Source of the DNA: Thiomicrorhabdus sp. zzn3
Lineage (GTDB): Bacteria > Pseudomonadota > Gammaproteobacteria > Thiomicrospirales > Thiomicrospiraceae
Direction of reading: 5' to 3'
Length of the DNA stretch: 64,000 bases
Assembly: GCF_029767755.1 (NCBI RefSeq)
Contig: NZ_JARUQS010000002.1
Location: 186,808 to 250,807, forward strand
A model generated the notes under the pieces. It was not told the DNA's origin. It worked only from the letters and a program-made list of their open reading frames with translations, and did not search any database. The position numbers and the translations under genes were made by a program. This document shows positions 40,615 through 44,511 of the stretch, piece after piece (the first letter of the stretch is position 1; each line of letters begins with the position of its first letter).

Positions 40615-41898
40615 TTAGTAAATCAGGCTGAACTGTGCGGATACACGGTTATCAATGCTGTCCAGAATATCGTGTACCGGTGACGCGCTTGGCAGATCCG
40701 GTGCATCGATATTACGCAGTTCGTAATTCATCTTTAGAGACATCTTCTTGTTAAAGAAATATTGGGCACCGAGAGTGGTGGTTTGCAGTTCACGGTGGAG
40801 GGCATCGGTTTCCGTGGCCGCATCAAGCAGGTCGTAGCGCAGATTCAGTTCCATGTTTGGTAAGACCCGATAACCGAGATCTACATAATATCCGGTTGCC
40901 TTTTCATCCGGCAGTACGCTAAAAGTCGCGCCGTCTGCTGGAAGTCCTGCTCCCTTGGTGCCACCATAAATCATACCGTCAGCGGTAATATACTCGGCAG
41001 CCAATCGATATTTGCCATCCCAATAGGTGGTCCCTAAACCGGCACGTTTACGATCAACCGTTCCCACATCATCCAGAGTCCGTTTTCCATCCTGCATCCA
41101 GGCAAAAAATTTCATGCCGTGGCGTCGTGCTCCTTTGGAATCGCCAAAGATTTTTTCCGTGGAGGCATATAGATAAAGGTCTTGATGTTTGTTGTCATCG
41201 GTCATCGCCAATCCATTACCATTGCCGAGCATGACGGCATAGCTGTGTTCCCAGTCTCCCTGGCGGAATGCATCGAAAACCTGGATACCGGTGTCACGGA
41301 ATGCGCCGACCGGGCCGCTTCTGCCGGTATTATCAGCGGCATTATCAAAAGGGCGTTCCAGCAGCAGGCGGTCGGTGACATTGGTGAAGTTGATGTAGTT
41401 AAAGACGCCAATCGCCTGAAGACCTTCTTCGGCTCCAGGCGTTTTGAACAGGCCTGCACGGATACGCGCCCCGGGGATGTGGTTCAGAGTGACACTGGCA
41501 TCGGTCAGTTGACCTTGTGAGGCTTTCCCTCCGGTGGTGATACCGTTATTTCCAAATTCAGCCAATAGGAAATAGTTTACTTTTGGATCTAACGGAAAGT
41601 TGTTACCTCTTACGCCAATGCGGGCACGACGGACATTAAATCCCTGAGAGGTCGTCAGCTGCGGTCCTAATTGGTTAAATGCAGCAGATTGTCCGGCAAA
41701 GGGTCCGGCCTTGAGCTTGGTGTCGTTAGTCGATTGATAGTCGATTTGTACAAATCCCCACACCTTGGCTCTAGGGGCTTGGTGTTCTTTTTCCGTTCCT
41801 TGGAGCATCAGCCAGTTAGCCGCTTGAACAGATTGGGCTGAGAATGCGCCGGCCAAAGCGACCAGCAAAGCCGTTTTTTTCATCGATTTTTTAAACAT
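40615..41898 (-). CDS. Porin, phosphate-selective O/P-like
   Basis: A 427-residue outer-membrane protein with a signal peptide (cleavage near VQAA) and beta-strand pattern throughout. The early AKVWGFVQIDYQ and NVRRARIGVRGN segments and the C-terminal VSAQFSLIY are characteristic of OprO/OprP-like trimeric porins for anions such as phosphate or polyphosphate. Substrate preference is inferred only from family. AGAGGA precedes the ATG. It is the last of three minus-strand genes (two DsrE-like proteins, then the porin, 62 bases apart), divergent from a sigma factor gene. Confidence 0.83.
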   Translation of the reverse strand: MFKKSMKKTALLVALAGAFSAQSVQAANWLMLQGTEKEHQAPRAKVWGFVQIDYQSTNDTKLKAGPFAGQSAAFNQLGPQLTTSQGFNVRRARIGVRGNNFPLDPKVNYFLLAEFGNNGITTGGKASQGQLTDASVTLNHIPGARIRAGLFKTPGAEEGLQAIGVFNYINFTNVTDRLLLERPFDNAADNTGRSGPVGAFRDTGIQVFDAFRQGDWEHSYAVMLGNGNGLAMTDDNKHQDLYLYASTEKIFGDSKGARRHGMKFFAWMQDGKRTLDDVGTVDRKRAGLGTTYWDGKYRLAAEYITADGMIYGGTKGAGLPADGATFSVLPDEKATGYYVDLGYRVLPNMELNLRYDLLDAATETDALHRELQTTTLGAQYFFNKKMSLKMNYELRNIDAPDLPSASPVHDILDSIDNRVSAQFSLIY

Positions 41899-41960: not shown

Positions 41961-42455
41961 TTAAGGGCGCAGGTAGAGATACCCTTTAGATTGCAGATAG
42001 GCGAGTTCGGCGACGCCGCTCGGTACTATCGTGGACGTGTCTACGTCATATAGATCGCGAGTCACATCAACGTTACGTCCTTTGACAGTATTGGCGCAGA
42101 CATTGAATTTAACCCCCTGCATTTTGAGCTGATCGATCTTCTGAGTCATGGTTTGGGTGGCATTGGCTGTCTTGAACTTGGGTACATTTTTCAAGGCTTC
42201 CGGTTTGAGTAACAATGAAAGGCCATTGCCATGCAGCACCACTTGCAGGTCAAGTTTGTCTGCCCCAACTGCATTGATGTGATTTTGAATGTTTCTTAGG
42301 GTTGAAGACTGTTTTTTGGCGTCGTCATAGTTGATGTGGTACACCACTTTTTGCATTCCGTATTTGCTTCCGCCGTCTGCATAAGAACTGTTGGGAAGCA
42401 GTGCGGCGCCGATCCATAACAGGACTAGAAACGCGTGTTTAATTGATTTCATCAT
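41961..42455 (-). CDS. Exported DsrE-like protein 2
   Basis: A 164-residue protein with a signal peptide ending near SYADG and a DsrE/DsrF-like domain: KVVYHINYDDAKKQSSTLRN, LDLQVVLHGNGLSLLL, and GVKFNVCANTVK containing the single mature cysteine (Cys120). In DsrE-type sulfurtransferases a cysteine at this position carries persulfide. It ends with SKGYLYLRP, a terminus shared with its neighbours. A 33-base gap separates it from DsrE-like protein 1; it has an insert of about 15 residues (KFKTANATQTMTQK) compared with it. Confidence 0.85.
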   Translation of the reverse strand: MMKSIKHAFLVLLWIGAALLPNSSYADGGSKYGMQKVVYHINYDDAKKQSSTLRNIQNHINAVGADKLDLQVVLHGNGLSLLLKPEALKNVPKFKTANATQTMTQKIDQLKMQGVKFNVCANTVKGRNVDVTRDLYDVDTSTIVPSGVAELAYLQSKGYLYLRP

Positions 42456-42488: not shown

Positions 42489-43007
42489 TTAAGGTTTTAG
42501 AATTTGCCAGCCAGCGGCATTCAGTTGCAAAATACGGCCTGCTCCGGCAGGAACTCTTTGAATCCCTTCGGCAATTTCAGGTTCCTTTCCAAGTTTTTTG
42601 CCAAAGTTTTTCAGCGTGTTGGAACAGGCGCTAAAACGTACTCCGGCATTCATCAAGGACTGAATACGTGATTGATTGACGTTGTCTTTGAGCATTAGGC
42701 GTACTCCGGGACCAAACCCCACAATTTCCAGATCCAGATTAGAGGCACCGTAATAGCGTTGCAGGTTTGCGGCGACATTCAGTACCAGAGTTTGTTTAAA
42801 TGGATCGCGATCGCTGATCTGTAAAACCACCTTATGTTCGGCAAAGGTATCTGGAAGTGGCATTTCTTGTTGCGCGGCGAATGCCGGCACGGATGTTAAC
42901 AGTCCCCATACGCAGGCGAACAGCCATGCAAACAACCATGGCATTGGCTTACGGGGCGCCAATCTATTCGAATTGACGCGAAGTGAAGCGTAACGATTTT
43001 GAATCAT
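42489..43007 (-). CDS. Exported DsrE-like protein 1
   Basis: A 172-residue protein started at ATG 43007, with AGAGGA upstream; an in-frame ATG at 43064 has a poorer site. A signal-type hydrophobic segment (residues 22-44, PWLFAWLFACVWGLL) precedes a DsrE-like domain: HKVVLQISDRDPFKQTLVLN, LDLEIVGFGPGVRLML, GVRFSACSNTLK with Cys128, and the final AAGWQILKP. It is the first gene of the minus-strand operon and divergent from the ECF sigma factor gene, sharing a 230-base promoter region with it. Confidence 0.85.
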   Translation of the reverse strand: MIQNRYASLRVNSNRLAPRKPMPWLFAWLFACVWGLLTSVPAFAAQQEMPLPDTFAEHKVVLQISDRDPFKQTLVLNVAANLQRYYGASNLDLEIVGFGPGVRLMLKDNVNQSRIQSLMNAGVRFSACSNTLKNFGKKLGKEPEIAEGIQRVPAGAGRILQLNAAGWQILKP

Positions 43008-43240
43008 GTTGGTTAAATCCTCTGTTGCGTAAAATTGAGCGCGCTTATCCGTTAAACGAACCATGATTAGGTTTTATTCCAATTTTCTAAACCAGTAATT
43101 TTTATTTGCCCAGCAATAAAATTTATTTCATAAGTTGTTAATATTTAAACAAAAATAGATTCCAGTTTTTTGTTGCAAACGGGTTTTAAATTCCATTACT
43201 ATCGAAAAAAGGATAAAACATAAGGTTAAGAAACAGAGTG

Positions 43241-43813
43241 ATGAAACTGTCTAGCAAAGTAGCGGATCTGTTTTGCGCATCACGCGATCGTAGAGAGTTT
43301 AATGCGGCACTCAAGCAGCAGTATGACAGTCTGTATCGACTGGCATACGCTTGGTGTCATCAGCCTGCCGTGGCTCAGGATCTGGTTCAGGAAACAATGC
43401 TAAAAGCCCTAGAAAGTCGAAAAGATCTCAACAGTTTGCAGCATTTAAGTGCTTGGCTGACCAAGATCATGCGTAATCAGTTTTTAGATGAAATGCGTTT
43501 TAATCGCCGTTGGGAGTGGGCCGATGAATCGGAGATTGATGAACATCATTGCAGTCACTGTAATGAGAGCGAACTGATTAAAAAGCAGCGTAACGAGTCT
43601 CTGTATGTCGCCATTTCTAAGCTGCCTTTTGAGCAGCGAGAAGCGATTTTGCTGGCCGATTTGCAGGGGTTCAGTTATCAGGAGATTGCTGAGATTACCG
43701 CGACTCCGATCGGTACGGTAATGAGCCGCATTTCGCGCGGCCGTGAACGCTTAAGAGGCCTGTTGAAAAAACAGGATAGTCAACCGAATGTGGTGCCTTT
43801 GAGGAGACACTGA
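43241..43813 (+). CDS. ECF-type RNA polymerase sigma factor
   Basis: A 190-residue group 4 sigma factor. Region 2 spans about residues 20-90 (YDSLYRLAYAWCHQPAVAQDLVQETMLKA, then AWLTKIMRNQFLDEMR). Region 4 spans about 120-180 (LPFEQREAILLADLQGFSYQEIAEI and GTVMSRISRGRERL). The linker carries HHCSHC (His102, His103, Cys104, Cys107), a possible metal or redox site. The start is ATG 43241, although an adjacent GTG is in frame. The anti-sigma gene follows after two bases. Confidence 0.94.
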   Translation: MKLSSKVADLFCASRDRREFNAALKQQYDSLYRLAYAWCHQPAVAQDLVQETMLKALESRKDLNSLQHLSAWLTKIMRNQFLDEMRFNRRWEWADESEIDEHHCSHCNESELIKKQRNESLYVAISKLPFEQREAILLADLQGFSYQEIAEITATPIGTVMSRISRGRERLRGLLKKQDSQPNVVPLRRH

Positions 43814-43815
43814 AC

Positions 43816-44511
43816 ATGGTGAATAAAATAGAACATTATCAACTGCAGGCGTATGTGGACGGTGAGTTGTCAACCGAAGAACGTTTGCAGATTGAAACGG
43901 TAATGGAATCGGACGCTCAGATCAACCAGGAAGTGATTCAACTTCAAGAGTTAAAATCCAGAGTAAAACAGGCCTATTTGGACATTCCAGTTCCGGAACA
44001 CAAAGAAAAAACCGATTCAGTGGCTAAACGCGTTTGGTCGGTTCCTAAAACGGCCGCAGCCTCATTGCTATTGGGTGTGGTATTGGGGATTTCTTCAGTA
44101 CAGTTAGGCGGTTTTGGAGAGTCCCATATTGGGCAACTGGCAGCGAATCAGGCGGTTGAATCGAATAAGTACATTATTCATATCGATTCGGGTGACTTGG
44201 ATAAACAGATTTTGGCGTTGCAAAAAATTGAATCGCTGTATGCTCAGAAGGGGCCCAGCCTTAAAGTGGATGTGATTTCCAACTCGCAAGGGGTTAAGCT
44301 GTTTGATGTTAAAAGCCCCAATAGTCAGCGTTTGGAAAGCCTGCTGGATCAATACAGCGGCTTAACCCTTTATGCCTGCAGCAGGGCGATAGAACGGGCA
44401 ATGAAAAAAGGGGAAACAATCCAGGTTTTGAAACGGGTGAAACATGATAAGCCTGCTGTGGATGCGATGGCCGAGCGTATGAATGCCGGTTGGAATTACA
44501 TCAAAATATAA
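43816..44511 (+). CDS. Anti-sigma factor with periplasmic DsrE-like domain
   Basis: A 231-residue membrane protein. The N-terminal cytoplasmic part (HYQLQAYVDGELSTEERLQIE) resembles anti-sigma domains without the zinc ligands, since no CxxC is present. One membrane helix lies at about 78-98. The periplasmic part (118-231) aligns with the two exported DsrE-like proteins encoded next door: NKYIIHIDSGDLDKQILALQ, LKVDVISNSQGVKLF, LTLYACSRAIE (Cys188) and the terminal NAGWNYIKI. It is translationally linked to the sigma factor. I infer that it holds the sigma factor at the membrane and releases it when the DsrE domain changes state. Confidence 0.88.
   Translation: MVNKIEHYQLQAYVDGELSTEERLQIETVMESDAQINQEVIQLQELKSRVKQAYLDIPVPEHKEKTDSVAKRVWSVPKTAAASLLLGVVLGISSVQLGGFGESHIGQLAANQAVESNKYIIHIDSGDLDKQILALQKIESLYAQKGPSLKVDVISNSQGVKLFDVKSPNSQRLESLLDQYSGLTLYACSRAIERAMKKGETIQVLKRVKHDKPAVDAMAERMNAGWNYIKI

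Follow-up and report, generated by a model that had tools for sequence, protein, structure and literature searches.

The locus lies in a 64,000-nucleotide stretch (hereafter the window) of the 2.37 Mb genome of Thiomicrorhabdus sp. zzn3 and consists of a sigma/anti-sigma gene pair on the forward strand and, opposite to it, a divergent operon of two dsrE-like genes, here labelled dsrA and dsrB, followed by a porin gene. The features are listed below by their positions in the window.

40615 to 41898, minus strand: outer-membrane porin of the phosphate-selective O/P family (Porin_O_P, PF07396, 1.3e-9)
41961 to 42455, minus strand: exported DsrE-like protein 2, dsrB (Pfam DsrE, 3.9e-11, 43.6 bits against a gathering threshold of 22.7)
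42489 to 43007, minus strand: exported DsrE-like protein 1, dsrA (Pfam DsrE, 1.6e-5, 25.4 bits against 22.7)
43054 to 43080, minus strand: candidate ECF promoter GGAATAA-N15-CGTTT of dsrA-dsrB-porin (own-genome match and conservation)
43170 to 43202, plus strand: candidate housekeeping-type promoter TTGCAA-N18-TACTAT of the sigma/anti-sigma operon (read from the sequence)
43238 to 43813, plus strand: ECF sigma factor (Pfam Sigma70_r2 4.3e-14, Sigma70_r4_2 1.1e-17)
43816 to 44511, plus strand: anti-sigma factor, with a cytoplasmic helical N-terminal domain (residues 1-60), one membrane helix (about 80-95 in the AlphaFold2 model), a linker (96-116) and a DsrE-fold domain (118-231) that carries Cys188

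The sigma factor has 191 residues with regions 2 and 4 present and region 3 absent in Pfam, which identifies it as an ECF sigma factor, and the genome encodes no second close match to it. The N-terminus of the anti-sigma factor resembles the zf-HC2 family, with a Pfam match (E 7.6e-4) whose score is just under the cut-off. For dsrA, the start is likely at 43007, because the longest open reading frame, from 43064, would begin within the promoter candidate. Both dsrE gene products are called exported from signal-peptide-like N-termini that were judged by eye, and instead of a cytoplasmic dsrE-dsrF-dsrH trio, of which there is none at the locus, it is these two genes and the porin that are found; no TonB-dependent receptor gene was seen there either. 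The open reading frames and Pfam families thus bear out the layout of the original prediction, in which an ECF sigma gene is accompanied by the gene of an anti-sigma factor with a single membrane helix and faces a divergent operon, dsrE-dsrE-porin.

The assignment of the anti-sigma C-terminal domain rests on profile and structural comparisons. Pfam DsrE (PF02635) reported no match for the window's anti-sigma factor, the domain lying under the reporting level, and among 31 anti-sigma relatives it was seen weakly in three, with a best E-value of 0.0014. When residues 118-230 were compared as a single sequence with solved structures, they matched the DsrE-fold protein MTH1491 (PDB 1l1s) at E 4e-4, and a profile of 20 anti-sigma relatives matched 1l1s at 2.9e-19 and ST0148 (2pd2) at 6.8e-8; the cysteine and the GW end line up. 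In the AlphaFold2 model of the anti-sigma factor the N- and C-terminal domains are both confident, and 1l1s ranks at the top of the Foldseek search (E 2.4e-7, probability 1.00, target TM-score 0.88), followed by other DsrE-like structures and, weakly, by the DsrEFH subunit 2hy5_B. By sequence profile and predicted structure, then, the domain is a member of the DsrE family, as had been proposed for residues 118-231 with a non-DsrE fold named as the finding that would speak against it. It is also homologous to its neighbor, since in several loci the domain matches the dsrA protein at about 1e-8 to 1e-9. The structure alignment was confined to proteins of the window and of related loci. In a domain tree the anti-sigma, dsrA and dsrB groups are each monophyletic (support for the anti-sigma group 0.77), and the monophyly of the anti-sigma DsrE domains is consistent with a single fusion event. 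In a fragmentary relative, L053 (1863-2553), the anti-sigma gene is broken between the part for the N-terminal domain and that for the DsrE domain, the two lying in separate frames, which may be an assembly error.

The three DsrE-like domains had been predicted to share one cysteine in the same place, and in the alignment this residue proved invariant, in 88 of 88 anti-sigma factors (Cys188), 58 of 58 dsrA proteins and 39 of 39 dsrB proteins (Cys120); in the profile alignment the position of Cys188 also coincides with the cysteine of 1l1s. In these three sets 87/88, 58/58 and 39/39 proteins, respectively, have no other cysteine in their exported part. In the exported DsrE proteins the residue belongs to a Cys-x-Asn-Thr motif that is kept almost without exception (in dsrA, Cys 58/58, Asn 57/58 and Thr 58/58) and that is lost from the anti-sigma domain, so that the cysteine of the latter may act differently or be structural. 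The redox motif HxxxCxxC of the ZAS family occurs in none of the 88 anti-sigma proteins, and with this motif absent and one cysteine in the exported part, a mechanism based on zinc or on an intramolecular disulfide is unsupported.

The regulatory link between the sigma factor and the dsrE-dsrE-porin operon is strongly supported by a conserved ECF-type promoter. The sequence GGAATAA-N14-16-CGTY, or a close variant, is found on the dsrE side of 39 of 51 intergenic regions and on either side of 45 of 51, where dinucleotide shuffles gave expectations per side of 0.13 (dsrE side) and 0.09. Because the motif was derived from the same regions in which it was tested, checks from outside them matter. 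A pattern search of the window's genome returned two exact matches, the one before dsrA and a second (L244) that sits within the pyruvate kinase gene and that we attribute to chance, which leaves the position before dsrA as the one plausible site of the genome. Within the genus of the window the -10 element reads CGTTTA, and the sigma gene is preceded by a housekeeping-like element rather than by the GGAATAA motif, several relatives in the genus having a similar TTGTTGCA...TTAGTATCG/TTACTATCG element at this place. In many other lineages the motif occurs on the sigma side as well as on the dsrE side, and there the sigma factor is likely to regulate its own gene. Where no dsrE gene adjoins, the gene behind the motif encodes a porin (L090, L213 and L220) or a SoxB-like metallophosphoesterase (L211 and L232). 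The last two genes, L211:1-1362 and L232:2786-4960, both on the minus strand, encode exported proteins divergent to a DsrE-type pair and may represent a second class of target; they belong to paralogous loci and score well below the SoxB cut-off, the best NCBIfam model for the L232 protein being SoxB at 1.8e-51, far under that cut-off.

The pair is widespread and its linkage to dsrE genes, which the original prediction expected to be conserved, holds across related genomes. At the family level the anti-sigma factor was present in 38 of 63 genomes, full-length relatives were found in 65 of 369 sampled Gammaproteobacteria, and in a phylum-level sample matches were confined to this same class. 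The sigma gene adjoins the anti-sigma gene in all 89 loci; a dsrE gene adjoins the pair in 35 of 37 family-level and 30 of 48 class-level loci, and a divergent porin gene is present in 30/37 and 28/48. The other 18 class-level loci have no adjoining dsrE gene, and some of them have other targets. Outside the genus of the window the module stays, while its surroundings (transporter, acyltransferase, oligopeptidase) are mostly different. Variations on the arrangement include tandem sigma/anti-sigma(DsrE) pairs in L221 (5081-8523) and L233 (5060-8446), where one pair is followed by a dsrB-type gene and the other has dsrA-porin divergently in front of it, and additional exported DsrE gene copies close to the module in L035 (7723-8253), L036 (6321-6824) and L045 (3246-3701). 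In L213, L222, L238 and L240, which come from different genomes, paralogous DsrE-type pairs adjoin groES or groES-groEL, and in L204 (3829-4854, minus strand) an exported protein in which two stretches resemble thioredoxin is encoded two genes downstream of the anti-sigma gene.

The proposed connection with sulfur oxidizers was upheld by genome content: 64 of the 65 anti-sigma-positive genomes carry soxB, as do 150 of the 369 Gammaproteobacteria overall, a co-occurrence with a Fisher p of about 2e-28 that ignores kinship among genomes and was computed from genome lists transcribed by hand. The SoxB-like genes behind the motif at two paralogous loci, and the agreement of the motif with the ECF26 consensus of the sulfite response, speak for the same connection. 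In Hydrogenovibrio thermophilus, dsrEF homologues without a Dsr system have been described, and an unknown sulfur trafficking process was proposed (PMC5733100).

The sigma side of the system points toward group ECF26. In Sinorhizobium meliloti and Starkeya novella, ECF26 promoters have the consensus -35 GGAAT and -10 CGTC (PMC6527743), and the S. meliloti ECF26 factor RpoE4 is activated by sulfite-generating compounds, with ECF26 pairs controlling sulfite dehydrogenase (PMC3511301). The N-terminus of the anti-sigma factor is homologous to that of DsrE-less anti-sigma factors of Cupriavidus, Burkholderia, Rhodanobacter, Ensifer and others, which we label COG5662-type by resemblance and not by a match to the COG. 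The promoter is shared by 11 of 60 COG5662-type loci, mostly of Burkholderiales, and several loci in the range L126-L144 are DsrE-less pairs of this order with GGAATAA...CGTC upstream on both strands. In a tree of DsrE-type sigma factors and their COG5662-type relatives the former stand apart (support 0.86) with two exceptions; L112, which falls on the DsrE side, is itself of the DsrE type but truncated. The shared promoter and N-terminus, together with the sulfite response of ECF26, suggest that the DsrE-type pair works like the ECF26 sulfur response.

We consider it probable that the pair forms a transmembrane sulfur-responsive switch, in which the periplasmic DsrE domain detects a reduced-sulfur signal, the sigma factor is freed and the dsrE-dsrE-porin operon is transcribed. 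At rest, as expected from the family, the N-terminal domain of the anti-sigma factor would tether the sigma factor to the inner membrane. The DsrE domain, with its presumed periplasmic location, would detect a signal of periplasmic thiosulfate or sulfide oxidation, and Cys188 would most likely carry a persulfide or thiosulfonate, acquired either without an intermediary or through an exported DsrE partner. Release of the sigma factor might follow from a change of conformation or from proteolysis at the linker by RseP, which the genome encodes. Going by the conservation of the promoter, the freed factor would then recognize GGAATAA-N14-16-CGTY and transcribe dsrE-dsrE-porin, whereupon the exported DsrE proteins may bind or hand on periplasmic sulfane sulfur and the porin may pass sulfur anions or products through the outer membrane. 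The original prediction saw in the exported DsrE proteins possible carriers or decoys.

A possible though unlikely alternative is that the system serves sulfite or thiosulfate detoxification in the manner of RpoE4, with the DsrE domain binding its ligand either non-covalently or as a Cys-S-sulfonate, and with the porin and DsrE proteins relieving sulfite or tetrathionate stress rather than carrying sulfane sulfur. The promoter consensus held in common with sulfite-responsive ECF26 promoters, the homologous anti-sigma N-terminus of the COG5662-type relatives and the activation of RpoE4 by sulfite-generating compounds (PMC3511301) all fit this reading, but the sensor domains of the DsrE-type and COG5662-type anti-sigma factors differ, and no sulfite-oxidase gene was recognized among the loci read.

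It is rather doubtful, by our estimate, that the anti-sigma DsrE domain senses no small molecule and instead enters a mixed ring with the exported DsrE proteins, whose free or sulfur-loaded state would set sigma activity by negative feedback. Such a ring would suit the homology between the sensor domain and its dsrA target, the genetic coupling of the two, and the precedent of DsrEFH, a hetero-oligomer (PDB 2hy5) that is also a structural match, while the loss of Cys-x-Asn-Thr from the anti-sigma domain is as expected for a partner that is not a carrier. Against it, a pure docking domain would have no need of an invariant Cys188 (88/88), and some loci have no adjoining dsrE gene. A broader proposal, which we put forward tentatively and judge rather unlikely, is that a sulfur-carrier fold was recruited once as a periplasmic anti-sigma receptor and forms mixed assemblies with the exported DsrE carriers that it controls, so reading the sulfur load of their periplasmic pool straight through the inner membrane; if true, sulfane-sulfur signaling in the periplasm would have a new form, common to many sulfur-oxidizing Gammaproteobacteria.

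Improbable is a general sensor of envelope redox state or oxidative stress, in which Cys188 would be oxidized or enter a mixed disulfide and the DsrE fold would be incidental: a lone periplasmic cysteine is a plausible target of oxidants, yet the target genes encode DsrE proteins, porins and a SoxB-like hydrolase and not antioxidant functions, and both the soxB co-occurrence and the lack of the ZAS motif argue against it. That the domain is merely DsrE-like by chance and its neighbors unrelated, for which the missing Pfam report taken alone would speak, is scarcely credible and is refuted by the profile match (2.9e-19), the fold match (probability 1.00) and the gene linkage and promoter conserved across the class.

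The transmembrane switch that we favor would bear on a matter about which little is known, the sensing of reduced sulfur outside the cytoplasm by sulfur oxidizers, for which the sensors cited are cytoplasmic repressors. With the DsrE-type family come a receptor domain with one invariant cysteine and a promoter, both of them defined, and a tiny regulon, all in lithoautotrophs that can be cultivated; its two exported DsrE families and porin point to an unrecognized periplasmic sulfur-trafficking step. In the main text of open papers searched for anti-sigma factors with DsrE, ECF factors with DsrE and transcriptomes, no description of such a system was found. The DsrE-type pair is a real and widespread variant of ECF signaling that has apparently not been described before, and it suggests a widespread, undescribed mode of sulfur sensing outside the cytoplasm in sulfur oxidizers.

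Compared with known systems, the anti-sigma domain shares its fold, cysteine position and GW end with MTH1491 (1l1s) and ST0148 (2pd2), though it is exported and joined through a membrane helix to an anti-sigma domain in front of it, and it has not kept Cys-x-Asn-Thr. The DsrEFH and TusBCD sulfurtransferases, likewise built of DsrE-fold proteins with a conserved cysteine, are cytoplasmic three-subunit complexes with DsrC and TusE partners, whereas the DsrE proteins here are exported or membrane-tethered. FecI-FecR cell-surface signaling also links a membrane anti-sigma factor to the gene of an outer-membrane protein, and zinc anti-sigma factors also sense thiols, but no gene for a TonB-dependent receptor was seen at the present locus, and HxxxCxxC is absent from all 88 proteins. 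SoxR and sHdrR (PMC10451225 and PMC12423496) are cytoplasmic ArsR-type repressors that sense sulfane sulfur in sulfur oxidizers; they share with the present system the transcriptional sensing of sulfur compounds and differ from its transmembrane sigma/anti-sigma switch. The nearest relatives are the ECF26 pairs (S. meliloti RpoE4/RpoE1 and S. novella SnSigE; PMC3511301 and PMC6527743), in which the anti-sigma gene also lies directly downstream of the sigma gene, the promoter consensus equals the DsrE-type motif, a very small regulon lies beside the pair, and there is a link to sulfur. The claim that no such system had been described therefore stands for the DsrE domain as sensor and for dsrE and porin genes as targets and has to be qualified for the sigma side, which in promoter and anti-sigma N-terminus closely resembles these described sulfite-response pairs. 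For ECF26 sigma factors themselves, our literature search found no described molecular receptor. The homology to the full-length COG5662-type anti-sigma factor of ECF26 is confined to the N-terminal domain, the COG5662-type relatives examined have no DsrE domain, and in place of sulfite dehydrogenase the targets here comprise the exported DsrE proteins together with a porin. Full membership of ECF26 thus fails on the anti-sigma sensor, and on the sequence comparison the pair is ECF26-like, with the usual sensor region apparently replaced by a DsrE domain.
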